NCBI RefSeq assembly: GCF_003002815.1
Contig: NZ_PVTF01000003.1
Coordinates: forward strand, 1 to 64,000
Origin: Umezawaea tangerina
GTDB taxonomy: Bacteria > Actinomycetota > Actinomycetes > Mycobacteriales > Pseudonocardiaceae
Direction: 5' to 3'
DNA length: 64,000 nucleotides
Under the pieces are notes generated by a model. It was not told the DNA's origin and made no database searches. It was given only the letters and a program-made list of their open reading frames with translations. Below are positions 25,842 to 61,310 of the stretch, one piece after another. A program made the translations under genes and the position numbers. The first letter of the stretch is position 1. The number at the start of each line of letters is the position of its first letter.

Positions 25842-25914
25842 GGGCCGCTAGCTCAACTGGCAGAGCAGCGGACTTTTAATCCGCGGGTTCGGGGTTCGAT
25901 CCCCCGGCGGCCCA
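25842..25914 (+). tRNA. tRNA-Lys (anticodon TTT)
   Basis: A 73-nt cloverleaf can be drawn: acceptor GGGCCGC/GCGGCCC with discriminator A, a D-arm with AGCTCAACTGGCAGAGC, anticodon stem GCGGA/TCCGC with loop CTTTTAA, and T-arm CGGGG-TTCGATC-CCCCG. The CCA end is not encoded. The 3' half from 25872 on is the attL core supplied by the integrated element, so integration leaves the gene intact. Confidence 0.95.
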
Positions 25915-27572
25915 CCCCGTTTGACCAGGGAGTTCCCTCGCCTTGAGGGGACTCCCTTCGGCGTTCTGGAGCCTCGGGAGCCCGTAGGGAGACCATCTGT
26001 CCCGCTGGCCGCCTCGGCGACCGGCTTCCGGGGGACCATCGCGGCCGTCTTCTCGGCCGCCTCAAGCGCCAGCCGCGGCGCCACACTCGTATACGTGTCG
26101 CGGGTGATGACCGACGACGAGTGCCCGAGCATTTCCTGCACGACCTTGATGTCCACGCCGGCCAGCAGCGCTAGCGTCGCGGCACCGTGACGCAGGTCGT
26201 GCAACCGGATCGGCGGCAGCCCAGCTTCCTCGACCAGCACGGCGAACAGGCTCGTGATCGACGCCGGGTGCAGTTCGGTCCCGTCCTCGCGGGTGAAGAT
26301 GCGCCCGCTGTCCGTCCAGCCCTCGCCCCACAGCAGTTTCTCGCCGACCTGCCGCCGCCGCCACGCACGCAGCACCAGGACGGTGTCAGCGTCAAGTAGC
26401 ACCGTGCGCTCGCCAGCGTCGCTCTTCGGCGTATCGGCCTCAACCGCCCAGCCGATCTGCACCAGCTGCTCGGCGACCGCCAGCGACGCGGTGTCGAGGT
26501 CGAGGTCGGTCCACCGCACGCCGCACGCCTCACCGCGACGCAGCCCGCGGAACGTGATCAGGTGGAACAGCGCGTACAGCCGTTCGTTGGCCGCGTGGTC
26601 GAGGAACGCGCCGGTCTGCTCGGCGGTCCACACCATCACCGGCGACGGGCGCTCGGTGGCGTCAAGCCGCTCGACCTCCTGCCGCAGCTCGGCGACGAGG
26701 CCCTCGTCCCGTGCCTTGTGCGCAAGCACCAGCTCTTCGACCGCGTCAGCCCGCCGGGACCGGTTGGCTCGCCACGCCGTGACCCGCTCGTCTGTCCACA
26801 CCAGAGCCTTCGGGCGCTTCCCGCTCTCCAACTCCACGAACGCCGCCGGGTTCACCAGGATGAGCTGCTGTCGCACCGCGTCGTTCAACGCCTTACGCAG
26901 CGTCGCCCGAATGCGCTGCTTCGTCGCCGCCCCAACGGGTTTACGCCCCTTCAACTCCGCGCGCTCCTCATCGGTCCCGGACGCGCGAACCGCGACGATG
27001 CGTGCCGACTCGGCATCGATCGCGTCGAACATCGCCGACACGTGGCCGACGCGCAGCTTGTCCAGCGGCAGCTCGCCGAGGTGGGGCAGGAAGTACAGGC
27101 GGATGTGTGCCTCGTACGACCGCGCCGTGCCGCTCTTCAGCTTCCGCCGTCCAGCCATCCACTCGGTGAGCCACTGGCCGACGGTCATCGTCCCGCCGAG
27201 CGCCTGCCCGGTCTGCTGGCGGCGGCGGAGCTCGTCGTAATCCGGCAGGGGCAGGCGCCGCTTCAGTGCGTCGTCGACGAGTCCGAGGATCTCCTCGCGT
27301 GCCGCCGCGCCAACCAAACCGGGTTCGGGGATGGTCAAGAGCAAACCGACCGCGCGCTGTGCGGCCTCGGCGGCGTCGCGGCTGTCGAACCCGCCGCGCT
27401 TCATCACCTGGCGCTGAACCCCCACCCCCGCTGGCAGCTCCAGCCGGAAGTACCAGGTGCCGTGCTTCGGGTTCCATGCCCCGTCCGCGCGCCGGAGCCG
27501 CGGACACGACGCGCCCGCCTCTCGGCCGTCGTCGCCGCGGCACTTGCACCGCTTGTAGACGCTGCCCTTCAC
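25848..27572 (-). CDS. int: Tyrosine integrase, last codons inside the att core
   Basis: The 574-aa integrase has an arm-binding/SAM-like N-terminal part with GTMTVGQWLTEWMAGR, and a catalytic domain. Catalytic residues are seen as FRGLRRGEACGVRW (first Arg), IRLHDLRHGAATLAL (HxxR), MLGHSSSVITRDTY (His and the nucleophilic Tyr). It catalyses recombination between attP and the tRNA-Lys attB. The ORF continues 15 codons through the att core (GGPPGDRTPNPRIKS) and stops after PLLCQLS in the tRNA 5' half. In the excised circle the end would instead be ARGFPSETDGKDQS. The GTG start overlaps the stop of the upstream regulator (GTGA). Confidence 0.95.
   Translation of the reverse strand: MKGSVYKRCKCRGDDGREAGASCPRLRRADGAWNPKHGTWYFRLELPAGVGVQRQVMKRGGFDSRDAAEAAQRAVGLLLTIPEPGLVGAAAREEILGLVDDALKRRLPLPDYDELRRRQQTGQALGGTMTVGQWLTEWMAGRRKLKSGTARSYEAHIRLYFLPHLGELPLDKLRVGHVSAMFDAIDAESARIVAVRASGTDEERAELKGRKPVGAATKQRIRATLRKALNDAVRQQLILVNPAAFVELESGKRPKALVWTDERVTAWRANRSRRADAVEELVLAHKARDEGLVAELRQEVERLDATERPSPVMVWTAEQTGAFLDHAANERLYALFHLITFRGLRRGEACGVRWTDLDLDTASLAVAEQLVQIGWAVEADTPKSDAGERTVLLDADTVLVLRAWRRRQVGEKLLWGEGWTDSGRIFTREDGTELHPASITSLFAVLVEEAGLPPIRLHDLRHGAATLALLAGVDIKVVQEMLGHSSSVITRDTYTSVAPRLALEAAEKTAAMVPRKPVAEAASGTDGLPTGSRGSRTPKGVPSRRGNSLVKRGGPPGDRTPNPRIKSPLLCQLS
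25872..25916. repeat. attL core of the integrated element (45 bp)
   Basis: This 45-bp stretch, from the anticodon loop to just past the tRNA 3' end, is identical to 48646-48690. It marks the left crossover region. It is also exactly 15 in-frame codons of the integrase gene on the minus strand. Confidence 0.92.
25928..25956 (+). terminator. Element-supplied terminator behind the restored tRNA
   Basis: The stem GGGAGTTCCCTC / GAGGGGACTCCC with a 5-nt loop lies 14 bp beyond the tRNA, inside the integrase coding end. It could end tRNA transcription after integration. Confidence 0.5.
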
Positions 27573-42670: not shown

Positions 42671-45610
42671 GTGTCGACCACGACCGGCCACATCAAGGCC
42701 ATCATCACTGCGGACAACGCGCAGTACATGGCCAAGAGCCGGGAGACCCGGACCGACGCCAAGACCCTCAAGGCCGACGTCGAGCGGCAGAAGCCGAAGA
42801 TCGACGCGGACGAGAAGCCGTTCGTCGCCGCGATCGCCCGCGCCGAAGCCGCCCAGGCCGGGCTGACCGACAAGCTGAAGAAGACCGTCGCCGACCTCCA
42901 GGTCCAGGTCTCGAAGGCCGGTGACGCCGAAGCCAACGCGCTCGGCCGGGTCAGGGTCGCCCAGGCCCAACTCGACGCGGTCCGGGACCAGGCCAACGCC
43001 CCGGCCGAGCGGCTGGCCGCCGCCGACGAGCGCCTCGCCGCGGCCCAGCGCGCTCTCGCGCAGGCGCAGCAGCGCACCATCACGGTCACCCAGCGCCACG
43101 CCGACGCGAACGACAAGCTCGCGGCCGCTACTGCCGCGGCCGCCGACGCCACCGAGGAATCGGTCGAGGTCAACAAGAAGGCCGCCGACTCCCACGACAA
43201 GGCCGCCAAGTCGGCCGGTGACCACGCGAAGACGATCGCGAAGGTCGCGGGCGCGATGCTGGGCGCCAACGCGGCGATGCTGGTGGGTGCGGTTGCCGCC
43301 GGCGCTGCGGTCGGGGTGTTGCCGGTGGTGGCGGTCGCCGCGGCGGCGGTGCTGCTGTCGTCGAACGCGAAGGTCCGCGACTCCTACGCAGACCTCGCTG
43401 ACGGGGTGGTGACCGAGGCGCGGGCGATGGCGGCCCCGCTCGAGGACGACTTGGTGCGGGCCTCGGACGATCTGGCGGCGTCGTGGAAGCGACTTCGCCC
43501 GGAGATGTCCTCGATCTTCAAGGACTCCCAGCCTGCGGTGCGCGAGCTCACCCGCGGGGTGACCGAGTTCGCGGAGAACGCCGTGCCGGGCATGGCCACC
43601 GCGGTGTCCCGTTCCGAGCCGGTGATGGTCGGCTGGCGCAAGTTCCTGTCCGATACCGGCCAGGGCTTCGGCGACTTCTTCCGCAACGTCTCCACGGACA
43701 CGGAGTCGACGGGCCGGAACCTGGCGGCGTTCGGCGACATCCTGCGCTCCACCCTGGGTGGGGTCGGCACCCTGCTCCAGACGATCAGCTCGAATTTCGC
43801 CCCGTACGCGGACGACTTCGCCCGCGTCTGGGAGAAGATCATTAGCGTCGTCACGAAGTTCACCTCTGGTGCGCTCCCGCCGCTGATGTCGTCGCTCGGG
43901 GTGGCGCTGGACGTGCTGGGCGCGGTGCTCGGCGTGGTCGAGCCGATCGCGGACGAGCTCGGCACGCTGACCGGGGTGGTGTTGTCGGCGGCGGCCGCGT
44001 GGAAGGTGTACACGGCCGCGATCGCGCTGGTGTCGAAGATCCCGCTCACGAGCGCGCTGACCACATCGGCGGCGGCCGCGGCTCCAGCGGGCGGGATCCT
44101 GTCCCGGCTTGGGCTGGGCGCGGGCGCGGCGGCTGCGGGCACGGGTGCGCTCGCGGGCGCGACGTCGGCGCTGGGCATCAGCCTGGCCGCGACGGGCCTG
44201 ATCATGGGCGCGTACCTGTTCGAGCAGCAGAAGGTCGACCAGTTCGCGGACGAGTTCGTGATGGGCATCACCAAGGGTGGTGAAGCCGCGCAGAACGTGA
44301 TGGACAAGTACAAGAACTTGTCGGCCAGCATCGCGGACCTGACGGCGAAGCGGGACGCGTGGAACGCCACCGACGAGGCGAAGCAGCTCGGCGGCGACGA
44401 CGCCATCGGCGGCCGCATGAACGACGAGATCCATGCGATGCAGGAGAACGTCGACGCCGCGAAGAAGGCGTGGGACGACTACCTCGCGTCCGTAGGCCCT
44501 GTGGAAGCCGCACAGGGCCGACTGAACCTCGCGATCGCCCAGTACGGCAAGGACAGTCCGCAAGCGACTGCTGCCGCCGAGGCCTACCGGGGGGCGGTGG
44601 CCAAGCAGGAGGCTGCGTCCCGTGACGCCGCAGACGCGGTGAAGACGCACACCGACCGCATGGCCGAGAACCTGGCCATGACGCGGCAGGCCGCAGGCGC
44701 GAGCCTGGACTACGACGCCGCGCTGCTCGGCCTGGAGACGGCGCAGAAGAACCTGAACGACGCGGTCGCCCAGCACGGCCCGACGTCGCTGGAGGCCCGC
44801 ACGGCGGACAACGCCTACCAACAGCAGCTCTTGGCGACGGTGGACGCGATCGGCGAGAAGGTCGCGGCCGAGAACGCTCACAAGTCCGCGGCCGAGATCA
44901 CCACCCTCGTGACCCAGGCCGAGTACGCCGAGATCCTGCGACTGGCCGGGGCCGCGGGGGACAACGCCCCGGCCGCGCTCCAGAAGATGATCAGCAGCAT
45001 GGACGGCGCTGCGCTGGCGGCGATGGGCGTGACGGTGAAGGTCGACGAGACCGGCCAGGCGATCCTCACGATGCCCGACGGCAAGCAGATCAAGATCGAC
45101 GGCGACAACGCCGCGGCGATGCGCGCCATCCAGGAGGTCAACGACAAGGCGGTCTTCGACAAGACGCTCTACATCAACGCGGTGGACCGGGCGTCCTCGA
45201 AGATCGCCGCGAGCAACGGCGTCGGCGGCATGAACGACGGCGGTTGGGTTCCAGGCAACGGCCCCGACAAGGACGACCGGATGGTGCCGCTGACGTCTCG
45301 TGAGTTCGTGGTCAACCGGCGCGCCGCGGCGAAGTGGGGGCCGTTCCTAGAGCAGATCAACTCGGCGAACGGCGGCGACGTGAAGATGCCGGACTCGGGT
45401 CTGCCGGACGCGGCTGCTCTCGCCCTGTTCGGGGCTCAGGTGCCAGCTACTCGCATGCCGGTGGACTCGACGTCTTCGCGTAGCAGCAACAACGCCACGA
45501 CCCCGGTGCAGCCGAGGGTCTACAACATCACCTTGAACTCGATGAGAACGCTGCCGTCTCCGCAGGAGTTGAGGAACGTGCTCCGGGACTTGGAGATGAT
45601 GTACGGCTGA
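42671..45610 (+). CDS. Phage tail tape-measure-like protein (979 aa)
   Basis: The protein has a long coiled-coil N-terminal half rich in Ala/Lys/Glu (about 35-185). Hydrophobic segments follow at about 190-235 (MLGANAAMLVGAVAAGAAVG) and 430-530. A second helical region comes next, then the tape-measure C-terminal motif GGWVPGNGPDKDDRMVPLTS with SREFVVNRRAAAKWG (about 855-890). This motif is common in tail length-determining proteins of actinophages. The start is a GTG without a clear ribosome site. No other tail gene is nearby, so it may be a captured or repurposed module; a role in conjugation or toxin delivery is speculative. Confidence 0.75.
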   Translation: MSTTTGHIKAIITADNAQYMAKSRETRTDAKTLKADVERQKPKIDADEKPFVAAIARAEAAQAGLTDKLKKTVADLQVQVSKAGDAEANALGRVRVAQAQLDAVRDQANAPAERLAAADERLAAAQRALAQAQQRTITVTQRHADANDKLAAATAAAADATEESVEVNKKAADSHDKAAKSAGDHAKTIAKVAGAMLGANAAMLVGAVAAGAAVGVLPVVAVAAAAVLLSSNAKVRDSYADLADGVVTEARAMAAPLEDDLVRASDDLAASWKRLRPEMSSIFKDSQPAVRELTRGVTEFAENAVPGMATAVSRSEPVMVGWRKFLSDTGQGFGDFFRNVSTDTESTGRNLAAFGDILRSTLGGVGTLLQTISSNFAPYADDFARVWEKIISVVTKFTSGALPPLMSSLGVALDVLGAVLGVVEPIADELGTLTGVVLSAAAAWKVYTAAIALVSKIPLTSALTTSAAAAAPAGGILSRLGLGAGAAAAGTGALAGATSALGISLAATGLIMGAYLFEQQKVDQFADEFVMGITKGGEAAQNVMDKYKNLSASIADLTAKRDAWNATDEAKQLGGDDAIGGRMNDEIHAMQENVDAAKKAWDDYLASVGPVEAAQGRLNLAIAQYGKDSPQATAAAEAYRGAVAKQEAASRDAADAVKTHTDRMAENLAMTRQAAGASLDYDAALLGLETAQKNLNDAVAQHGPTSLEARTADNAYQQQLLATVDAIGEKVAAENAHKSAAEITTLVTQAEYAEILRLAGAAGDNAPAALQKMISSMDGAALAAMGVTVKVDETGQAILTMPDGKQIKIDGDNAAAMRAIQEVNDKAVFDKTLYINAVDRASSKIAASNGVGGMNDGGWVPGNGPDKDDRMVPLTSREFVVNRRAAAKWGPFLEQINSANGGDVKMPDSGLPDAAALALFGAQVPATRMPVDSTSSRSSNNATTPVQPRVYNITLNSMRTLPSPQELRNVLRDLEMMYG

Positions 45611-48645: not shown

Positions 48646-48690
48646 ACTTTTAATCCGCGGGTTCGGGGTTCGATCCCCCGGCGGCCCACC
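48646..48690. repeat. attR core (45 bp)
   Basis: Identical to 25872-25916. It is the original 3' half of the tRNA gene left behind by integration and is no longer attached to a 5' half. Confidence 0.92.
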
Positions 48691-50712: not shown

Positions 50713-51318
50713 GTGTTGGGGGAGTTCATCGCAACGGCGTTCGGCTACCCGACGGCGTTCCTCAGCGTGCTCCTCCTCGTCGTCGTCCTCTACTGGCTGC
50801 TGGCCGCGGTCGGCGTGCTCGACGGCGACGGGGGCGAGGTGGGTGGCCTGGAGGGCGTGCTCGCCGGGCTCGGTGTCGACGGCGTGCCCGTGACCGTCGT
50901 GCTGTCGCTGGTGACCGCCTTCTCCTGGTTCGCCTGCCTCGGGGGCTCCGTGCTGCTCAACGGGTTCGACCTGTCGTCGCCGCTCACGATCGTGGTCGGC
51001 CTGGTCGTGCTGCTGGTCGCGCTCGTCGTCGGCGTGCTGCTCACCAGGCTGCTGGCGTGGCCGGTGCGCAAGCTGTTCCCGAACCCGCCGCAAGCCTCCC
51101 GCAACGACTTCATCGGACGCCCGTGCGTGATCCGCACCGGCACCGTGACGCAGACCTTCGGCCAAGCCGAGGTGACGGCGTCCGACGGGTCGTCCGCCGT
51201 CGTCCAGGTGCGCCAACCCGGCCAGGACCCCCTGGTCGCGGGGAGCACCGCACTGATCTTCGACTACGACGGCGACGGCGAGTTCTTCTGGGTCGCGCCG
51301 CTCGACCCGAACCTCTAG
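50713..51318 (+). CDS. NfeD/YqiJ-like OB-fold membrane protein
   Basis: The protein of about 201 aa has membrane spans at about 10-38 and 60-115 and a C-terminal OB-like beta-barrel (about 130-201: DFIGRPCVIRTGTVTQTFGQ, AEVTASDGSSAVVQVRQPGQ). It resembles YqiJ, the partner encoded before YqiK-type flotillins. GGAGGG precedes the GTG closely; a TTG one codon later is an alternative start. It lies 12 bp before the flotillin gene. Confidence 0.8.
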   Translation: MLGEFIATAFGYPTAFLSVLLLVVVLYWLLAAVGVLDGDGGEVGGLEGVLAGLGVDGVPVTVVLSLVTAFSWFACLGGSVLLNGFDLSSPLTIVVGLVVLLVALVVGVLLTRLLAWPVRKLFPNPPQASRNDFIGRPCVIRTGTVTQTFGQAEVTASDGSSAVVQVRQPGQDPLVAGSTALIFDYDGDGEFFWVAPLDPNL

Positions 51319-51330
51319 GGGGTTTCTGCC

Positions 51331-53466
51331 ATGGGTGTGATCACCACGGGTTTCGGCATCCTGATCGCCGTTGTCGTGTTCGTCGTCCTCGTCTTCCTGT
51401 TCATGGTCAGCAGGCTGTTCCGCAAGATCGAGCAGGGCAAGGCGCTGATCGTCTCCAAGGTGCGCAAGGTGGACGTGACGTTCACCGGTGCCGTGGTCCT
51501 GCCGGTGCTGCACCGGGCCGAGATCATGGACATCTCGGTGAAGACGATCGAGATCAAGCGCGCGGGCAACGAGGGCCTGATCTGCCAGGACAACATCCGC
51601 GCCGACATCCGGATCACGTTCTTCGTGCGGGTCAACAAGACCGTCGAGGACGTCATCAAGGTCGCCCAGGCGATCGGCACCGCCCGCGCCAGCGACGAGC
51701 ACACCCTCCAGGAGCTGTTCAACGCCAAGTTCTCCGAGGCGCTCAAGACCGTCGGCAAGCAGCTCGACTTCGTGGACCTCTACACCAAGCGCGACGAGTT
51801 CCGCGACCAGATCATCCGCGTCATCGGCACCGACCTCAACGGGTACAGCCTGGAGGACGCGGCGATCGACTTCCTCGAGCAGACGCCGATGTCGCAGCTC
51901 GACCCGGCGAACATCCTGGACGCGCAGGGCATCCGCAAGATCACCGAGCTGACCGCGATCGAGCACGTGCGCACCAACGAGTTCCAGCGCAGCGAGGAGA
52001 AGGAGATCACCCGCCAGAACGTCGACGCGCGGGAGGCGATCCTCGAGCTCCAGCGCAGGCAGGCGGACGCGGAGACCAAGCAGAAGCGCGAGATCGAGAC
52101 GATGCGCGCCCGCGAGGAGGCCGAGACCGCGAAGGTGCAGGCCGAGGAGCGGTTCAAGGCCAGCAGCGCGCACCTGCGCACCGAGGAGCAGCTCGGGATC
52201 CAGGACCAGAACAAGTTCCGCGAGATCGCCGTGGCGGAGAAGAACCGCGAGCGCGTGATCGCGATCGAGACCGAGCGGATCGAGAAGGACCGCCAGCTGG
52301 AGGTCATCGGCCGCGAGCGCGAGACGCAGCTGGCGAGCATCTCCAAGGACAAGGAGCTCGAGGGTGAGAAGCGCAACATCGCCGAGGTGATCCGGGAGCG
52401 CATCGCGGTCGAGAAGACCGTGGCCGAGCAGGAGGAGAGCATCAAGCGCCTCCGCACGGTCGAGGAGGCCGAGCGCTTCCGCCAGACGACCGTGATCCAC
52501 GCCGAGGCCGAGGCCCAGGAGGGCCTGGTCAAGGACATCAAGGCCGCGGAGGCCGCCGAGCAGACCGCGAAGCACAAGGCGCGCGAGGAGCTGACGCTCG
52601 CCGAGGCCCGCCAGCAGACCGCCGAGCTGGAGACCCGCGCGAAGATCCGGCTGGCCGAGGGCACGCAGGCCACCGCCGCCGCCGAGGGGCTGGCCAAGGT
52701 GCAGGTCAGGGAGCGCGACGCCGAGGCGATCGAGAAGGTCGGCCGGGCGGAGGCCGTGGTGGCGCGGGAGAAGCAGCTCGCGCAGGCCGAGGGCGCCGAG
52801 AAGGTCGGCATGGCCGAGGCGGCCGTGTCGCGCGAGAAGCAGCTCGCCAACGCCGAGGGCGCCGAGAAGGTGGGCATGGCGGAGGCCGTGGTCGAGCGGG
52901 AGAAGGCGATGGTCGCCGCCGCCGCGATCCGCGAGAAGCTCAAGGGCGAGGCGGAGGGCCTGTCCGACAAGGCCTCCGCGATGAACGCGCTGGACGACGC
53001 GACCCGCGGCCACGAGGAGTACCGGCTGCGGCTGGAGGCCGAGAAGGAGATCCGCCTCGCCGGGCTCGGCGTGCAGCAGAAGGTCGCGGAGTCGCAGGCC
53101 TTCGTGCTGGCCGCGGGGCTGGAGAAGGCCGACATCGACATCGTCGGCGGCGAGAGCATGTTCTTCGACCGGGTGGTCGGCGCGATCACGATGGGCAAGA
53201 GCGTCGACGGGTTCGTCGAGCACTCCGACGTCGCGCAGAGCCTGGCGGGCCCGTGGCTCAACGGCTCCGCGGACTTCACCCAGGACATCACCAGGGTGCT
53301 CGGGTCGTTCGGCACGAACGACGTGCAGAACCTGACCGTGTCCGCGCTGCTGATGCGGCTGATCTCCACCGGTGGCCCGGACTCGGGAAAGCTGACGGAG
53401 CTGCTGGACACCGCGAAGAAGCTCGGACTGGCCGAGCGCCCGGTCGCCGCCCTCGCGGCGAAGTGA
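51331..53466 (+). CDS. YqiK-type flotillin (SPFH) protein
   Basis: The 711-aa protein has an N-terminal membrane span (about 9-28), an SPFH/band-7 domain (about 30-230: FRKIEQGKALIVSKVRKVDV, FTGAVVLPVLHRAEIMDISV, IRADIRITFFVRVNKTVEDV) and a very long charged coiled coil (about 230-600) with near-tandem units AEGAEKVGMAEA and REKQLANAEGAEK. A C-terminal oligomerisation region follows. Flotillins form membrane scaffolds. It sits between the OB-fold gene and the AAA+ gene, with gaps of 12 and 7 bp. Confidence 0.9.
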   Translation: MGVITTGFGILIAVVVFVVLVFLFMVSRLFRKIEQGKALIVSKVRKVDVTFTGAVVLPVLHRAEIMDISVKTIEIKRAGNEGLICQDNIRADIRITFFVRVNKTVEDVIKVAQAIGTARASDEHTLQELFNAKFSEALKTVGKQLDFVDLYTKRDEFRDQIIRVIGTDLNGYSLEDAAIDFLEQTPMSQLDPANILDAQGIRKITELTAIEHVRTNEFQRSEEKEITRQNVDAREAILELQRRQADAETKQKREIETMRAREEAETAKVQAEERFKASSAHLRTEEQLGIQDQNKFREIAVAEKNRERVIAIETERIEKDRQLEVIGRERETQLASISKDKELEGEKRNIAEVIRERIAVEKTVAEQEESIKRLRTVEEAERFRQTTVIHAEAEAQEGLVKDIKAAEAAEQTAKHKAREELTLAEARQQTAELETRAKIRLAEGTQATAAAEGLAKVQVRERDAEAIEKVGRAEAVVAREKQLAQAEGAEKVGMAEAAVSREKQLANAEGAEKVGMAEAVVEREKAMVAAAAIREKLKGEAEGLSDKASAMNALDDATRGHEEYRLRLEAEKEIRLAGLGVQQKVAESQAFVLAAGLEKADIDIVGGESMFFDRVVGAITMGKSVDGFVEHSDVAQSLAGPWLNGSADFTQDITRVLGSFGTNDVQNLTVSALLMRLISTGGPDSGKLTELLDTAKKLGLAERPVAALAAK

Positions 53467-53473
53467 CCCGCCG

Positions 53474-56400
53474 GTGACCGCCACGCAGGAGGGCACCGCA
53501 CCCGCTTCCCCCGGGCTCGACGCGGGCACCTACGAGGTGCTGCGGGCCCGGCTCGCCGAACAGGCCGCCGGGCTCGCCCGCCGCGCCGAGGAGCTGAACG
53601 CCGAACGCCTCCGGGTGTTCGGCGGGGCCGAGCTGCGGCTCATCGGCACCGAACGCATCCGGACCGCGAACAACTGCGTTCCCAGGGACTGCATTCAGGT
53701 CGGTGGCCTGATGCTGTTCGGGTACAACGTGTTCATCGGGCTCAAGCCCGAGACGACCGTGGACGACGTGTTCTCGCTGCACCGGTTCACCCGCGACGGC
53801 GAGGCGTTCCGGTTCGAGGACGCGGGCCCCGACGAGCTGCCCGGCCTGCTGCGCGACCCGGCGTTCCTGCGCGACTTCGCCGAGCTGTACCGGTACTACC
53901 GCGACACCCGGCTGCTCCAGCTGCGGCGGGTCGAGGGCAAGGTGCTGGCGGTGTTCCAGACCGGTGCCCGCACCGAGGACATCCGGGTGCTGCGCTGGCA
54001 GGTCGGCACCGACGGCTCGGTGTCCTACGTGGACAACCGGGGCGAGCGCGACCACGTCTTCCCGCCGTCGCACGACTTCGAGTGGACCACCACGGTCCGC
54101 GAGAACCACGTGCTGGGCCGCCACCCGCACATCTCGATCGAGGACGAGGTGTTCGTCGAGACGGTCGGCGGCGACCTCACGGTCAAGGTGGAGAACAACA
54201 CCGAGACCGGCGAGGGCGTCTACCGGGAACCGGTGGACGAGCCGTTGCAGAGCCTCGCCGACGCGGACGTCGCGTACGCGCGGGTCGGCTCGCTGATCCT
54301 GCTGCGGGTCCGGCCGTACAACGAGACCGCGTGGCGGCACCTGGTCTTCAACACCCGCACCAAGGCCGTCGTGCGGCTCGACGGCATCGGCCAGGCGTGC
54401 CAGCGGCTGCCCGAGGACCAGGGGCTGATCTTCCCCGGCGGGTACCACCTGGAGACCGGGGTCGGCAAGACCTTCGACACCGAGGTGGACGACCTCGAGT
54501 TCGAGCGGGTGATCCGCTCCACCAACGGCGAGGACGTGCTCTACGTCTTCCACGCCCGCGGCGACGGCCGTTCGCTGCTGCTGCCCTACAACGTGATCCG
54601 CAAGGAGGTGGCGACGCCGATCCCGTGCCACGGCTACTCGCTGTTCGACGACGGCACGCTGGTCGTGTTCCGCGCCGCGTCGGACGAGCCCACGCGGGTG
54701 CACCCGATGCAGGTGTGGCAGACGCCGTACCTGTCCGACACCTACGCCGCCGCCCAGCCGATCGGGACCGGGCCGCTGGACCGGGTCGGCAACGCCGACC
54801 TGGTGCGCGGCATCTCCGACTGCCTGTCGGTGTCGCGGATGGTCGGCGAGATGGCGCCGTCCGCCCCGGTGTTCGAGGCCCTGATCGCGGCCTGCACGCG
54901 GGCGTTCGACCACTACCACTGGCTCGGCGAGGCCGACCTCGGCGACCTGGGCACCCCGTTGTCGCAGGTGCGCGCGACGGCCGAGCAGGTGCTCGACGAG
55001 TTCGAGACCGTGCAGGCGTTGACCGACCAGGCCGCCGCGGCGCTGGAGGAGGCGAACACCCGGATCGCCTCCCTGGTCCGGCAGCAGCGCGGTGACACGC
55101 CGAGCACCGCCGACGCGTGGGTGCGCAGGCTCGCCGACCTGCGCAAGGCGCAGGGCAGGCTCGTCACGCTGCGGGAGCTGCGCTACGTCGACCTGGCGCG
55201 GATCGACGCGCTGGTCGCGGACCTCGACGAGGAGCTGGGCACGTCGGCGCAGCGCGCGGTCGCGCACCTCCAGCGGGAGGACGCGTTCACCGGCTACCAC
55301 GCCGAGATCGACGAGCTGGTCGTGAAGGCGGACGCCATCGCGACGGTCGCCGAGGCCAAGCCGGTCACCGAACGGCTGCTCGAGCAGTCCCAGGGGCTGG
55401 AGGTGCTGACCGAGGTCGTCAGCTCGCTCGACATCGCCGACGCCACCGTGCGGACCGGCATCCTGGAGCGCATCGGCGAGGTGCTCGGCGGCATCAACCG
55501 GGCACGGGCCACTGTGGACGGTCGCCGCAAGCGGCTGCTCGACAGCGAGGGGCGCGCGGAGTTCGCCGCCGAGTTCGCGCTGCTGGGCCAGGCCGTCACC
55601 GGCGCGCTGGCCGTGGCGGACTCGCCGCAGCGCTGCGACGAGCAGCTGGGCAGGTTGCTGCTCCAGCTGGAGAACCTGGAGTCGCGGTTCAGCGACTTCG
55701 ACGACTTCCTGGCCGAGCTGGGCGCGAAGCGCACGGACGTCTACGAGGCGTTCTCCTCGCGCAAGCAGGCGCTGCTGGACGAGCGCGCCCGCCGGTCGGA
55801 CCGGCTGGTCGACTCCGCGGACCGCATCCTGGCCAGCGTCACCCGTCGGGTCGCCACGCTCGCGTCGCTGGACGACGTGAACACCTACTTCGTCTCCGAC
55901 CCGATGGTCGCGAAGCTCCGCAGCGTCGTGGCCGACCTGCGGGAGCTCGGCGACCAGGTGCGCGCCGAGGAGCTGGAGGGCAGGCTCCTCGCGGCGCGGC
56001 AGGAGGCCGGGCGGTCGTTGCGCGACCGGCTCGACCTGTTCACCGACGGCGGCGAGACGATCAGGCTGGGCAGGCACCGGTTCGCGGTGAACACCCAGAC
56101 CGTGGACCTCACGCTGGTGCCGCAGGACGGCGCGATGTCGTTCGCCATCACCGGGACCGACTTCCGCGAGCCCGTCACCGACCCCGACTTCGCCGCCACC
56201 AAGCCGTTCTGGGACCAGCTGCTGGTGTCGGAGTCGACCGGGGTCTACCGCGCCGAACACCTGGCGGCGGCGATCCTCGCCGGTCACGACGACCCGAAGG
56301 CGCTGGTCGAGGCCGATCTGCTCGACGTCGTGCGGCGGGCCGCGGAGTCCCGGTACGACGAGGGCTACGAACGCGGCGTCCACGACCACGACGCCGCTCG

Positions 56401-58312
56401 CGTCCTGGAGGTCCTGCTCCGCCTGCACGCCGGCGCCGGTGTCCTGCGCTACCCGCCGACGGCCCGCGCCAACGCCCAGCTGTTCTGGGCGTTCGAGGCG
56501 GACGACGACCTGAAGCACGCGTGGACCCGCCGCGCGACCTCGTTGGCCCGCGCCCGCACGGTGTTCGGGCGGTCGCGGGCCATCGACGCGCTGGCCGAGG
56601 AGATGGGCGCCGCCATCGGGGACGCGCTCGCGGGCGAGTACCTGTTCGAGGAGCTGGCCACCGGGCAGCAGGGGTTCGCGACCAGCGCCGCCGCGCGGTC
56701 GCTGCTCGAAGGCTTCCACCGCGCGCTGGGCAGCCGCCACGAGTACGACGAGGACCTCCGCTCGGTCGACCTGCCCGCCCGCCGCCAGCTCGTCGAGGCC
56801 TGGCTGGGCGTGTTCCTCGGCGACCAGGGCTCGCCGGACCTGCCGGAGGCGGTCGCCCTGGAGCTGTGCCACGACCTGCCGCGCTACGACTCGTCGGCCG
56901 AGCTGACCGGCGTCGTCGACGGCCTGCTCGGCACGCACCCGCGGATCGTGGACCGGAGGCTGGAGTTCCGCGTCGACGAGCTGCTGGCCAGGACCAGGGC
57001 GTTCCGGCTGGAACGGGTGCCCGCGTTCCGCGCGTACCTGCGGCAGCGCAACGAGTTGGTGGCCCGCAAGAAGAAGGAGCTCCGGCTGGAGGAGTTCCAA
57101 CCGAAGGTCATGAGCGCGTTCGTCCGCAACAGACTGCTCGACGAGGTCTACCTGCCCCTGATCGGCGACAACCTCGCCAAGCAGCTCGGCGCCGCCGGTG
57201 ACGCCAAGCGCACCGACCAGATGGGCCTGCTCCTGCTCATCTCCCCGCCCGGCTACGGCAAGACGACGCTCATGGAGTACGTCGCCAACCGCCTCGGCCT
57301 GATCTTCGTCAAGGTCAACGGCCCGTCACTCGGCCACGACGTCACCTCCGTCGACCCCGCCGAGGCGCCCAACGCCACCGCCCGCCAGGAGATCGAGAAG
57401 ATCTCGTTCGCCCTGGAGATGGGCAACAACGTCCTGCTGTACCTGGACGACATCCAGCACACCTCACCGGAGCTGCTGCAGAAGTTCATCTCGTTGTGCG
57501 ACGCCCAGCGCCGCATGGAAGGCGTCTGGAACGGCGGCACCCGCACCTACGACCTGCGCGGCAAGCGCTTCGCCGTCTGCATGGCGGGCAACCCCTACAC
57601 CGAGTCCGGCCACCGCTTCCGCATCCCCGACATGCTCGCCAACCGCGCCGACGTCTGGAACCTGGGCGACGTCCTCTCCGGCCGCGAAGACCTCTTCGCG
57701 CTCAGCTACGTCGAAAACGCCCTGACGTCCAACCCCGTCCTGGCCCAACTCTCCACAAGGGACAGACGGGATGTCGAGCTCCTGGTCCGACTCGCCCACG
57801 ACGACGACACCGTCCGCCCCGACCAGCTCACCCACCCGTACTCCTCGGTCGAACTGGACCAGGTCCTCTCGGTACTGCGCAAACTCATCCGCGCCCAGGA
57901 GGTCGTGCTCGCCAACAACCAGGCCTACATCACCTCCGCCGCCCAGTCCGACGCCTCCCGCACCGAACCCCCGTTCCGCCTGCAGGGCTCCTACCGCAAC
58001 ATGAACAAACTCGCCGAACGCATCGTCCCCGTCATGAACGACGCCGAACTCTCCGCCATCATCGACGACCACTACGCGGGCGAAGCCCAAACCCTCACCT
58101 CGGGCGCTGAGGCAAACCTGCTGAAACTGGCAGAACTGCGCGGCACCCTCACCAAGCAGCAAAAGGAACGCTGGACCGAGGTGAAAACCGCCTACCTCCG
58201 CTCCCAAGCCCTAGGCGGCTCCTCAGACGACCCGATGAGCCGCGCAGTAGGCGCCGTAGGCCTACTGGCAGACCGCGTGGGCACCGCAATCGACCGCCTC
58301 GCAAACCAATAA
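53474..58312 (+). CDS. Large AAA+ 'DNA repair ATPase'-like protein (1612 aa)
   Basis: The protein has a beta-rich N-terminal third (about 60-450, including IGTERIRTANNCVPRDCIQV), a long helical middle with coiled coils (about 490-850), further helical regions and a C-terminal AAA+ domain. Walker A is ISPPGYGKTTLMEYVANRLG (about 1256), Walker B is LLYLDDIQHTSPELLQKFIS (about 1322), and a sensor region reads CMAGNPYTESGHRFRIPDML. Proteins of this plan are called 'DNA repair ATPase' by database naming, but I know of no proven function. It is translationally close to the flotillin gene (7 bp gap), so the three genes are one operon. Confidence 0.85.
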   Translation: MTATQEGTAPASPGLDAGTYEVLRARLAEQAAGLARRAEELNAERLRVFGGAELRLIGTERIRTANNCVPRDCIQVGGLMLFGYNVFIGLKPETTVDDVFSLHRFTRDGEAFRFEDAGPDELPGLLRDPAFLRDFAELYRYYRDTRLLQLRRVEGKVLAVFQTGARTEDIRVLRWQVGTDGSVSYVDNRGERDHVFPPSHDFEWTTTVRENHVLGRHPHISIEDEVFVETVGGDLTVKVENNTETGEGVYREPVDEPLQSLADADVAYARVGSLILLRVRPYNETAWRHLVFNTRTKAVVRLDGIGQACQRLPEDQGLIFPGGYHLETGVGKTFDTEVDDLEFERVIRSTNGEDVLYVFHARGDGRSLLLPYNVIRKEVATPIPCHGYSLFDDGTLVVFRAASDEPTRVHPMQVWQTPYLSDTYAAAQPIGTGPLDRVGNADLVRGISDCLSVSRMVGEMAPSAPVFEALIAACTRAFDHYHWLGEADLGDLGTPLSQVRATAEQVLDEFETVQALTDQAAAALEEANTRIASLVRQQRGDTPSTADAWVRRLADLRKAQGRLVTLRELRYVDLARIDALVADLDEELGTSAQRAVAHLQREDAFTGYHAEIDELVVKADAIATVAEAKPVTERLLEQSQGLEVLTEVVSSLDIADATVRTGILERIGEVLGGINRARATVDGRRKRLLDSEGRAEFAAEFALLGQAVTGALAVADSPQRCDEQLGRLLLQLENLESRFSDFDDFLAELGAKRTDVYEAFSSRKQALLDERARRSDRLVDSADRILASVTRRVATLASLDDVNTYFVSDPMVAKLRSVVADLRELGDQVRAEELEGRLLAARQEAGRSLRDRLDLFTDGGETIRLGRHRFAVNTQTVDLTLVPQDGAMSFAITGTDFREPVTDPDFAATKPFWDQLLVSESTGVYRAEHLAAAILAGHDDPKALVEADLLDVVRRAAESRYDEGYERGVHDHDAARVLEVLLRLHAGAGVLRYPPTARANAQLFWAFEADDDLKHAWTRRATSLARARTVFGRSRAIDALAEEMGAAIGDALAGEYLFEELATGQQGFATSAAARSLLEGFHRALGSRHEYDEDLRSVDLPARRQLVEAWLGVFLGDQGSPDLPEAVALELCHDLPRYDSSAELTGVVDGLLGTHPRIVDRRLEFRVDELLARTRAFRLERVPAFRAYLRQRNELVARKKKELRLEEFQPKVMSAFVRNRLLDEVYLPLIGDNLAKQLGAAGDAKRTDQMGLLLLISPPGYGKTTLMEYVANRLGLIFVKVNGPSLGHDVTSVDPAEAPNATARQEIEKISFALEMGNNVLLYLDDIQHTSPELLQKFISLCDAQRRMEGVWNGGTRTYDLRGKRFAVCMAGNPYTESGHRFRIPDMLANRADVWNLGDVLSGREDLFALSYVENALTSNPVLAQLSTRDRRDVELLVRLAHDDDTVRPDQLTHPYSSVELDQVLSVLRKLIRAQEVVLANNQAYITSAAQSDASRTEPPFRLQGSYRNMNKLAERIVPVMNDAELSAIIDDHYAGEAQTLTSGAEANLLKLAELRGTLTKQQKERWTEVKTAYLRSQALGGSSDDPMSRAVGAVGLLADRVGTAIDRLANQ

Positions 58313-59366: not shown

Positions 59367-59849
59367 ATGAACGATCCCGCCCAGCGAGCGGCGCTCGAAG
59401 CCCGCAACGCGGCTCTGCGCACCCAGGTCGACTCGATGCTGGCCAACCTCGAACGCCAGACGTCCGCTTTGCGCGACGCCCAGGCGGAGGCCGTGTCGAA
59501 GACCGGCAGCGCGACGTCGCAGGACGGGCTCGTGCAGGTGGTCGTGAACGCGGCGGGCATCGTGACCGATGTGAAGTTCGCCCCCGCGGCCTTCGAGCGC
59601 AGCACGCCCGACAAGCTCGCCCAGTCCGTGGTGCGGGTCGTCCAGGCCGCGGCGGCGGACGCGCGGCGGCAGGCCGACGCGGCGATGGCGCCGTTCCAGC
59701 AGAACGTGCCGGACCTGCCCGACCTGTTCCCCGGCGCGCCGTCGCTGAAGGACCTGGTGCCCACCCCGCCCGCCGTGCCGGTGGCCCCGCCGAAGCGCCC
59801 GGACGACGACGAGCCCCGTGACTCCCTGATGGACAGGAACGACTGGTGA
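59367..59849 (+). CDS. YbaB/EbfC-like protein of an ESX cluster
   Basis: The 160-aa protein has a coiled helix start (ALRTQVDSMLANLERQTSAL) and a YbaB-like core (DGLVQVVVNAAGIVTDVKFA, LAQSVVRVVQAAAADARRQA), then a proline-rich tail. YbaB-like proteins of this type sit directly before WXG100 genes in actinomycete ESX loci and may act as chaperones or nucleoid proteins. It overlaps the next gene by 4 bp (GTGA). Confidence 0.82.
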   Translation: MNDPAQRAALEARNAALRTQVDSMLANLERQTSALRDAQAEAVSKTGSATSQDGLVQVVVNAAGIVTDVKFAPAAFERSTPDKLAQSVVRVVQAAAADARRQADAAMAPFQQNVPDLPDLFPGAPSLKDLVPTPPAVPVAPPKRPDDDEPRDSLMDRNDW

Positions 59850-60167: not shown

Positions 60168-61310
60168 ATGGGCATCGAGATTCCCGGAGCGGTCGAGTGG
60201 CTGGTCCCGATCGTGGTCGGCGCCGACTGGCCCGAGGGCGACGAGACGGCGCTGCGCAGGCTGAGCGAGGCGTGGACGGCCGCGGGCACGGCGGTCGGCG
60301 AGGTCGTGCAGGAGGGCAACGGCGCGTCCACGGCCGTGCTCGGCTGCATGACCGGCGCGACCTCGGAGGCGTTCGACAAGTACTGGAAGCAGTTCGTCGA
60401 GGGTGACGCCTACCTCGTCAACCTCCAGCAGCTCTGCACCGACCTGGCGTCGGGCTGCGACGACGCCGCGCTGAACATCGAGTACACCAAGCTCAGCATC
60501 ATCGCGGCGCTGATCATCCTGGCGGCCCAGATCGCGGCCATGATCGCGTCCGCGGTGGCCACGTTCGGCGCGAGCACAGCCGGTGTCCCGATCGCGCAGG
60601 CCGCGACCCGGATCACCGTGCAGATGTTCTTCCGCGAGCTGATCAAGCAGATCGCCATCAACGTGGCCATCAACGTCGGCGTCGACCTGGCGATCCAGGG
60701 TGGGCAAGCGCTTGCGGGCAACCGCAAGAGCTGGGACGCGGGCAAGACCCTCGACGCGGGCATCGCCGGTGTGGCCGCGGGTGTCGCGGGCGGCACGGTC
60801 GGGGCCCTGTCGAAGGGGATCGGCACCACCACCAGCAGCTTCGTCCAGGCCGCCGGTCGCGGCGCGGTCGAAGGCGCGATCGGCGGTGCGGGCGGCAACG
60901 TCCTGAACAACTTCGCGCACGGCAAGTTCGGCCTGGAGGACACGCTCGGCGCCGTGGTGTCCGGGGCGTCCTCGGGCAGCGTCGGCGGTGCCGTGGGCGG
61001 CATGTCCAACCGGCACGGCGGGCTGACCGACACCTGGGGCACCGGCACGTCGCCCGACGGGACGACGACCGCGGGTGCCAACACCCAGGGCCACACCTAC
61101 CAGACGCCCGACGGTGCGACCGTGCGGGCGAACGTGCCCGGCAACCCGTACAACGGCGGCTGGGGCTCGGGCAACGCCCAGCACATCCCCGGTGACGGCG
61201 GGCCGAACAACGTCAACGACGCGCACGACGACGACTACGAGGTCAAGACCTCCGCGAACCCGCCGCGGATGGTCGGCGACCTCGACCTGCCCGACCCGCC
61301 GAGGCGGTAG
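60168..61310 (+). CDS. WXG100-like / CpnT-N-terminal-like ESX protein
   Basis: The 380-aa protein opens with IPGAVEWLVPIVVGADWPEG, the phrase typical of WXG100-like N-terminal domains of CpnT and other polymorphic ESX toxins. A helical region (about 30-110) and hydrophobic glycine-rich segments (about 105-260) follow, with a C-terminal tail rich in Gly, Asn and Asp (about 280-380) but no recognisable enzymatic domain. It may be a carrier that lacks its toxin, an intact effector of unknown type, or a scaffold. It starts 10 bp after the WXG100 gene. Confidence 0.75.
   Translation: MGIEIPGAVEWLVPIVVGADWPEGDETALRRLSEAWTAAGTAVGEVVQEGNGASTAVLGCMTGATSEAFDKYWKQFVEGDAYLVNLQQLCTDLASGCDDAALNIEYTKLSIIAALIILAAQIAAMIASAVATFGASTAGVPIAQAATRITVQMFFRELIKQIAINVAINVGVDLAIQGGQALAGNRKSWDAGKTLDAGIAGVAAGVAGGTVGALSKGIGTTTSSFVQAAGRGAVEGAIGGAGGNVLNNFAHGKFGLEDTLGAVVSGASSGSVGGAVGGMSNRHGGLTDTWGTGTSPDGTTTAGANTQGHTYQTPDGATVRANVPGNPYNGGWGSGNAQHIPGDGGPNNVNDAHDDDYEVKTSANPPRMVGDLDLPDPPRR

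Follow-up and report, generated by a model that had tools for sequence, protein, structure and literature searches.

What does a flotillin do when a giant ATPase is encoded directly behind it? The question is raised by an operon at positions 50713 to 58312 of a 64,000-nucleotide stretch of the Umezawaea tangerina genome (contig NZ_PVTF01000003.1 of the 10.7 Mb assembly GCF_003002815.1; the whole stretch is called the window below). Genes for an NfeD-like membrane protein, a flotillin and an AAA+ protein of the DUF3686 family lie back to back on the plus strand, separated by intergenic gaps of 12 and 7 bp. This layout had been proposed by an earlier reading of the DNA letters (the sequence-only reading), and the order, strand and spacing are confirmed here. 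That reading also took the genes for a linked unit of undescribed purpose. The linkage is borne out by co-occurrence, adjacency and co-evolution; the novelty is not, since the operon was already described in 2024 (Ravi et al., 2024, mSystems; PMC11237479) and the window copy adds one more example. What is added here is the loss of NfeD or its OB part in some Streptomyces copies, and neighbouring genes of the PucR, RCK/TrkA, NhaA and ArsB/NhaD types. The parts of the operon referred to below are as follows (aa, amino acids).

50713..51318, plus strand: NfeD-like (YqiJ/DUF1449 type) membrane protein, 201 aa, GTG start
51088..51315, plus strand: C-terminal OB-type part of the NfeD-like protein (approximate boundary; fold assigned by homology)
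51331..53466, plus strand: flotillin (SPFH, YqiK type), 711 aa, ATG start
51331..51432, plus strand: N-terminal hydrophobic segment of the flotillin, residues 1-34
52765..52896, plus strand: tail of the flotillin, two 22-aa units in tandem, about residues 479-522
53474..58312, plus strand: DUF3686 AAA+ protein, 1612 aa, GTG start
53573..54919, plus strand: DUF3686 region of the AAA+ protein, residues 34-482 (Pfam)
55280..55531, plus strand: DUF7902 domain of the AAA+ protein, residues 603-686 (Pfam)
57242..57268, plus strand: Walker A motif of the AAA+ protein, SPPGYGKTT, residues 1257-1265
57446..57451, plus strand: Walker B acidic pair of the AAA+ protein, D1325-D1326
57590..57592, plus strand: N1373 of the AAA+ protein, in MAGNPYT, at a sensor-1-like position

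Flotillin and DUF3686 genes are paired

An even sample of 249 genomes from the same order, the source genome included, contained DUF3686 in 31 genomes, and the flotillin profile matched exactly those 31. When the coordinates were read side by side, the flotillin gene was directly upstream of the DUF3686 gene on the same strand in all 31. In a sample of the phylum to which a Myxococcus genome belongs, DUF3686 was present in 65 of 146 genomes and flotillin (E 1e-30 or better) in 70, among them all 65 with DUF3686; the same reading of coordinates placed the two genes next to each other in 59 of the 65. Both genes lie at contig ends in two further genomes (G556 and G628), and in the last four (G579, G583, G594 and G596) both are present on different contigs. 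The NfeD-flotillin pair and the AAA+ gene each lie deep inside long contigs in G583 and G594, and several kilobases downstream of flotillin carry no AAA+ gene on the shorter contigs of G579 and G596; the AAA+ gene has therefore moved away in these four genomes, with all three genes retained. Flotillin was matched without DUF3686 in five cases: the match in G565 sits on a contig piece of 345 bp, that in G573 runs to the end of its contig, and the other three score only 110-168 bits. The sequence-only reading had named two patterns that would speak against a module, the genes usually lying apart and the AAA+ gene standing alone with a housekeeping neighbour. The genes lie apart in only 4 of 65 genomes of the Myxococcus-phylum sample and in none of the 31 of the order, and the second pattern was not encountered in the samples searched.

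Flotillin also lies upstream of the AAA+ gene in 87 of 89 further loci, and in the remaining two the AAA+ gene starts at the contig edge. These loci were chosen for the AAA+ gene (nine from genomes, plus the 80 best of at least 535 confirmed matches) and are biased towards near relatives. NfeD profile matches were obtained in 70 of the 89, with six of the 19 misses having no upstream sequence. Profile-based adjacency counts of 78 and 59 of the 89 are too low, because long proteins split into several hidden Markov model (HMM) pieces and contigs end; the better count is 87. In a plasmid collection, 12 records, of which some have the size of chromosomes, include the AAA+ gene; ten of the 12 were fetched. 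All three genes are adjacent in eight loci from this collection (two Deinococcus, Hymenobacter, Proteus, Pseudomonas, Halomonas, Vibrio and Photobacterium), and two Streptomyces plasmids carry flotillin and the AAA+ gene with a transmembrane-only NfeD gene or none. The operon occurs in several bacterial phyla.

Protein distances of flotillin and the AAA+ protein were strongly correlated over 57 loci (r = 0.904; maximum of 500 permutations 0.514), and NfeD distances correlated with those of flotillin or the AAA+ protein at r 0.55-0.58 (permutation maximum 0.37); these correlations partly reflect shared species history. The adjacency of the flotillin and DUF3686 genes in the same 31 genomes of the order puts their arrangement beyond chance. 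Among the AAA+ relatives fetched, those of Saccharothrix come closest (78-81% in the best segments), and the tree groups the window protein with them. One of two DUF3686 copies in a single genome (L012 in G128) has an interrupted AAA+ gene beside an open flotillin frame. A candidate natural flotillin-AAA+ fusion at L052 was dropped, as the flotillin there is split over two frames.

The partners are a YqiK-type flotillin and an AAA+ protein without a zinc-protease motif

The assignment of the 1612-aa protein to the AAA+ class holds. Pfam matches were obtained to DUF3686 (7e-226), DUF7902 (1e-31) and AAA (2e-6); PF12458 (DUF3686) scores 750 bits over residues 34-482 against a curated cut-off of 25, and both PF00004 and AAA_5 are above cut-off in the C-terminal AAA module (residues 1253-1330). 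A Walker A motif (PPGYGKT) and a DD pair at Walker B are present in all 99 loci; 80 of these were fetched with motif patterns that may favour DD, and the 19 fetched otherwise all have it. Most AAA+ proteins carry DE at this position. N1373 occupies what we take, from general AAA+ anatomy, to be a sensor-1-like position. No HExxH zinc-protease motif was found in the 1612-aa protein, and Pfam gave no match to any Vps4-specific family. Sequence searches of the PDB with the AAA+ part returned P-loop matches only, and the N-terminal half gave no credible relative (best E 0.075).

Recognition of the 711-aa protein as a flotillin with repeated tail units is likewise upheld. The family profile (A7) aligns with E. 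coli YqiK at 99.7% probability (E 1e-26). In Pfam SPFH/Band_7 searches the window flotillin and the Hymenobacter flotillin are unmatched, and relatives L020 and L152 match Band_7; L020, 46% identical to the window flotillin, is above the Pfam Band 7 cut-off. Since Pfam makes no SPFH call, the identity of the window flotillin rests on the profile comparison and on these relatives. The sole NCBIfam match, a weak one to FloT, scores 17.8 bits where the cut-off is 700, and a PDB sequence search returned no match. The protein has a single N-terminal hydrophobic segment and a coiled-coil-like tail, in which 29 of 48 positions agree at a period of 22; the 22-aa repeats are absent from most of seven aligned relatives.

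The 201-aa protein, read earlier as an OB-type membrane protein, is NfeD-like by a chain of profiles; Pfam itself makes no NfeD call. Hydrophobic segments lie within residues 5-119, and the OB-type tail (~126-201) aligns with relatives. The profile of the window family (A6) matches one that includes a DUF1449-annotated protein (A9) at 99.95%, and A9 matches E. coli YqiJ at 79.6% (E 1.5e-5). The direct comparison of A6 with YqiJ is weak (4.8%, E 0.008), so the YqiJ/DUF1449 link of the window protein is transitive.

NfeD has been reduced or lost in some Streptomyces copies

The state of NfeD was scored in 89 loci (91 with a flotillin start, minus two with too little upstream sequence; two copies each from G128 and G182 are included). 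The full gene is present in 60, the membrane part only in 15, and no NfeD gene in 14. All 29 reduced loci fall in the Streptomyces part of the tree, where at least four changes in the presence of the OB part are required and L063, a full copy, is placed among reduced copies; these change counts are approximate, as 20 of the 91 inner branches of the FastTree tree are weakly supported and long branches meet. A genome-wide NfeD search found no copy in eight of nine NfeD-less genomes and a partial copy elsewhere in the ninth (G708); all three comparison genomes were positive. Because the loci were selected for the AAA+ gene, what is observed is that flotillin stays next to it where NfeD has gone. 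The NfeD-less Streptomyces lineages offer natural two-component versions for reconstitution.

PspA accompanies the operon in two phyla

Ravi et al. (PMC11237479) describe the trio of YqiJ/YuaF, band-7/flotillin and AAA+ proteins together with CesT/Tir and PspA, report that abbreviated operons are more widely distributed, propose a role in membrane dynamics from context, and liken PspA-AAA+ pairs to Snf7-Vps4. The window operon has the same three protein types, including the "novel AAA+ ATPase" with long N-terminal regions, and differs in having no CesT/Tir-PspA pair. The beta-propeller that they place in the N-terminal region of the AAA+ protein could not be confirmed for the window protein: self-comparison of the DUF3686 profile gave no convincing repeat and no credible PDB relative was found, both tests being insensitive. 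The main text of that paper, supplements apart, makes no mention of TrkA, PucR or Streptomyces.

These operons raise the possibility that the AAA+ protein is a Vps4-like disassembly factor for PspA, the bacterial ESCRT-III, with flotillin as its platform and with PspA encoded elsewhere in actinomycetes. Among the loci collected here, the trio on pQBR103 is preceded by genes for YjfI, PspA, a rhomboid protease, DUF2491, DUF350, DUF1190 and a glutathionylspermidine-synthase-like protein, and in Hymenobacter by a Tir chaperone and PspA. The window operon resembles PspA/Vipp1 systems with Vps4-like AAA+ proteins in the ATP-driven membrane remodelling proposed for both, and differs from them in the lack of PspA, none being found in the operon, and of a Vps4-specific match. 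The source genome does carry one PspA. A profile search, which is a rough check with some rows in the wrong frame, found PspA at only those two of the 99 loci; it superseded tblastn with two PspA queries, which was judged insensitive as the queries missed each other. PspA is moreover common where DUF3686 is absent (9 against 0 of 14 control genomes). We consider a dedicated PspA disassembly factor possible and rather unlikely. The PspA-containing versions do favour membrane stress among the purposes suggested by the sequence-only reading, as do the published proposal (PMC11237479) and, weakly, the ion-transport genes near Streptomyces copies.

Regulator and cation-transport genes recur beside Streptomyces copies

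Flanking genes were called by a script based on G+C by codon position, which may miss or mis-start genes, chiefly in loci of lower G+C, of which there are few. A PucR-type regulator (GGDEF_2 plus HTH_30) matched within 38 of the 99 loci, many of them Streptomyces, and in 27 of the 38 it is divergent and at most 1.5 kb upstream of flotillin. A TrkA/RCK protein (L060:15077-17074 and relatives; RCK/TrkA_N) with channel-like membrane segments matched above 400 bits in 14 of the 99 loci and more weakly in two more, in four arrangements (downstream or upstream, on either strand). NhaA was found in seven loci and ArsB/NhaD in six (partial in L063); the NhaA and ArsB queries were taken from counted loci (L156 and L149), and L015 and L016 are one genome. 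None of these four types of gene occurred in 20 control regions of 19 kb, a zero that is weak evidence because a gene present once or twice in a genome would almost never be expected there. Cation-transport genes are associated with the operon in Streptomyces.

Such neighbours suggest an ion-homeostasis module, in which flotillin and the AAA+ protein, under stress from salt or pH, would control the assembly or activity of the RCK channel-like protein or of a Na+/H+ antiporter. A TrkA/RCK match is present in 28 of the 30 Streptomyces genomes searched; 22 list exactly one (that of G685 partial), and in seven of the 30 the match lies within ~10 kb of the operon; all 30 have one to four NhaA matches. 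The presence of TrkA requires six changes on the tree by parsimony, with 15 loci labelled positive, including the weak L013, and only loci over 15 kb scored; several TrkA-positive loci are close relatives. A potassium channel also occurs in a related PspA operon (PMC11237479). On the contigs of G701 and G707, TrkA and NhaA lie within a few kilobases of each other, so a stress island that holds both would explain the link more simply than a direct tie in function. The motif TVGYG is the canonical filter of potassium channels; it was not found in the TrkA/RCK protein, and the window and almost all loci outside Streptomyces lack the link altogether. We consider an ion-homeostasis module of this kind unlikely.

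Anti-phage defence and DNA repair

Two other purposes had been proposed for the operon. As an anti-phage system it would combine a membrane scaffold with a giant ATPase, which its patchy distribution (8 of 296, 31 of 249 and 65 of 146 genomes) and the plasmid-collection records would fit. PADLOC returned weak P-loop matches only for the three operon proteins, and weak LmuB matches in the middle region of one relative. From 27 of the 89 loci 144 flanking proteins were chosen and, with one long protein omitted, 143 were scanned. Among the families listed (25 of 50), there were four matches to kinase models and two to mad3; 140 control proteins gave, among the families listed (25 of 45), one kinase, three mad3 and one each of type I methyltransferase, DpdF and PsyrT. 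The kinase-model matches are generic (Pkinase in Pfam). The enrichment next to defence genes that the sequence-only reading had envisaged was thus not seen in these small samples, among the families listed. A collection of 50,697 phage records held no match, and a pattern-seeded scan of IMG/VR gave none that was confirmed. We regard a defence role as very improbable.

The idea of a DNA-repair or nucleoid-maintenance ATPase at the membrane draws on database names, namely the Pfam description "ATPase involved in DNA repair" and the NCBI product name "DNA repair ATPase" of relatives. It also draws on a weak RuvB-like similarity, which spans ~45 residues around the P-loop and is common to Cdc48 and Rix7. 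Pfam gave no match to DNA-binding or nuclease families, with RuvB_N appearing only beneath its cut-off, and the recurrent flanking clusters identified (about ten) included no repair gene; the gene that strictly accompanies it encodes a flotillin, a membrane protein. In Shewanella, losing a related flotillin gave 100 times more gentamicin- or kanamycin-resistant colonies, a result that the authors explain through iron and oxidative damage (PMC1468410, 2006). DNA maintenance is highly unlikely to be the purpose of the operon. Searches of the open-access full-text literature found nothing on DUF3686, nor on a "DNA repair ATPase" with flotillin, and the open-access literature searched held no functional test of this AAA+ protein.

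A proposed flotillin oligomer with its own AAA+ motor

We place about even confidence in the most likely reading, in which the operon encodes a membrane-anchored flotillin oligomer with its own non-protease AAA+ motor, acting in membrane or ion stress. In its favour are the strict pairing of the two genes, their correlated distances, the intact Walker motifs, the absence of HExxH, and the PspA and cation-transport genes near some copies. A physical complex, a cage, a substrate and a triggering stress are what we infer. The flotillin, its N-terminus in the membrane, probably assembles like other SPFH proteins into a ring or cage, and the NfeD-like protein is probably an accessory part at the cage base. 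Flotillin1 and Flotillin2 form a membrane-attached cage (PMC11260169), and a structure of an SPFH-NfeD pair, QmcA-YbbJ, has been published. The DUF3686 protein would dock from the cytoplasm by way of its coiled-coil and large N-terminal regions. Upon disturbance of the envelope or of ion balance, the one AAA+ module at its C-terminus would remodel or take apart assemblies bound to the membrane. Candidate substrates are PspA filaments, the flotillin cage itself, and membrane proteins such as ion channels held in the cage.

FtsH is a membrane-anchored zinc protease. It is found in complex with HflK/C (PMC13220708), and the window operon resembles this system in joining an SPFH scaffold to an AAA+ motor, differing in that its AAA+ protein carries no HExxH motif and that the gene for it follows immediately on that of the flotillin. 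The pairing may work as HflKC-FtsH does, minus the protease. A more specific version is tentative and rather unlikely: flotillin and DUF3686 would form a self-contained, non-proteolytic counterpart of HflKC-FtsH in which the AAA+ protein remodels the cage, NfeD would be an accessory discarded repeatedly, and the Streptomyces version would be controlled by PucR and act on cation channels or antiporters under ion stress.

Several observations weigh against such a motor. Only 8 of 296 genomes sampled across all Actinomycetota, the source genome included, have DUF3686, a rarity that marks the system as optional. PspA, beside 2 of 99 loci and encoded by a single match on another contig in the source genome, is not a universal operon partner. 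Outside Streptomyces, the link to cation-transport genes is seen only for NhaA at L061 (Nocardia), and the window does not have it. The invariant DD pair may mean slow ATP hydrolysis or none. There are two-gene DUF1449-flotillin versions with no AAA+ gene next to them, so these two proteins can do something that does not need the AAA+ protein. Both E. coli yqiJ-yqiK and Shewanella SO1376-SO1377 share with the window a DUF1449 protein and a flotillin; no AAA+ gene adjoins yqiJK, and SO1376 (DUF1449) and SO1377 (flotillin) form a two-gene unit (PMC1468410). B. subtilis YuaF-FloT likewise shares an NfeD-flotillin pair with the window. It is not known to have an AAA+ partner. In favour of a role in stress, on the other hand, the Shewanella flotillin mutant is sensitive to H2O2 and altered in iron handling (PMC1468410).

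Bacterial flotillins are usually discussed as scaffolds, and every DUF3686 genome in the order and Myxococcus-phylum samples also has flotillin, even where the genes are unlinked. So strict a pairing offers a route to ask what a flotillin cage does mechanically; the loss of NfeD and the split myxobacterial genes sharpen the question of operon function, and the regulator and transport genes nearby point to the stresses worth trying first.

Surroundings of the operon in the window

The operon has a G+C content of 68-72%, inside the range of the surrounding DNA, and scans of it for sigma-70 promoters and terminators gave nothing above shuffled sequence. A divergent gene for a CobW-like GTPase begins 119 bp upstream of the NfeD-like gene, and a PPOX-like gene lies ~5 kb from the operon on the downstream side with other genes intervening; both names are readings of the sequence. 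L046 and L073 are the sole fetched loci that match both genes beside the operon, and their AAA+ proteins are on a branch separate from that of the window. Also downstream of the operon, a 380-aa protein that resembles a WXG100/secreted-effector-type N-terminus (60168-61310) adjoins a YbaB-like gene (59367-59849), these names also being read from sequence.

A 22.8 kb integrated element occupies 25872-48690, and the flotillin operon begins ~2 kb beyond its end. The element is bounded by two copies of the 3' end of tRNA-Lys, a direct repeat of 45 bp (25872-25916 and 48646-48690), and its genes encode an integrase (25851-27572), a replication initiator, a DnaB-like helicase, an FtsK/SpoIIIE-like protein, a repressor and a tape-measure-like protein, a mixture of integrative-conjugative-element and phage traits. 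Its 979-aa protein (42671-45610) has weak similarity to phage tail tape measure proteins (PHROG 9228, E 1.5e-8).

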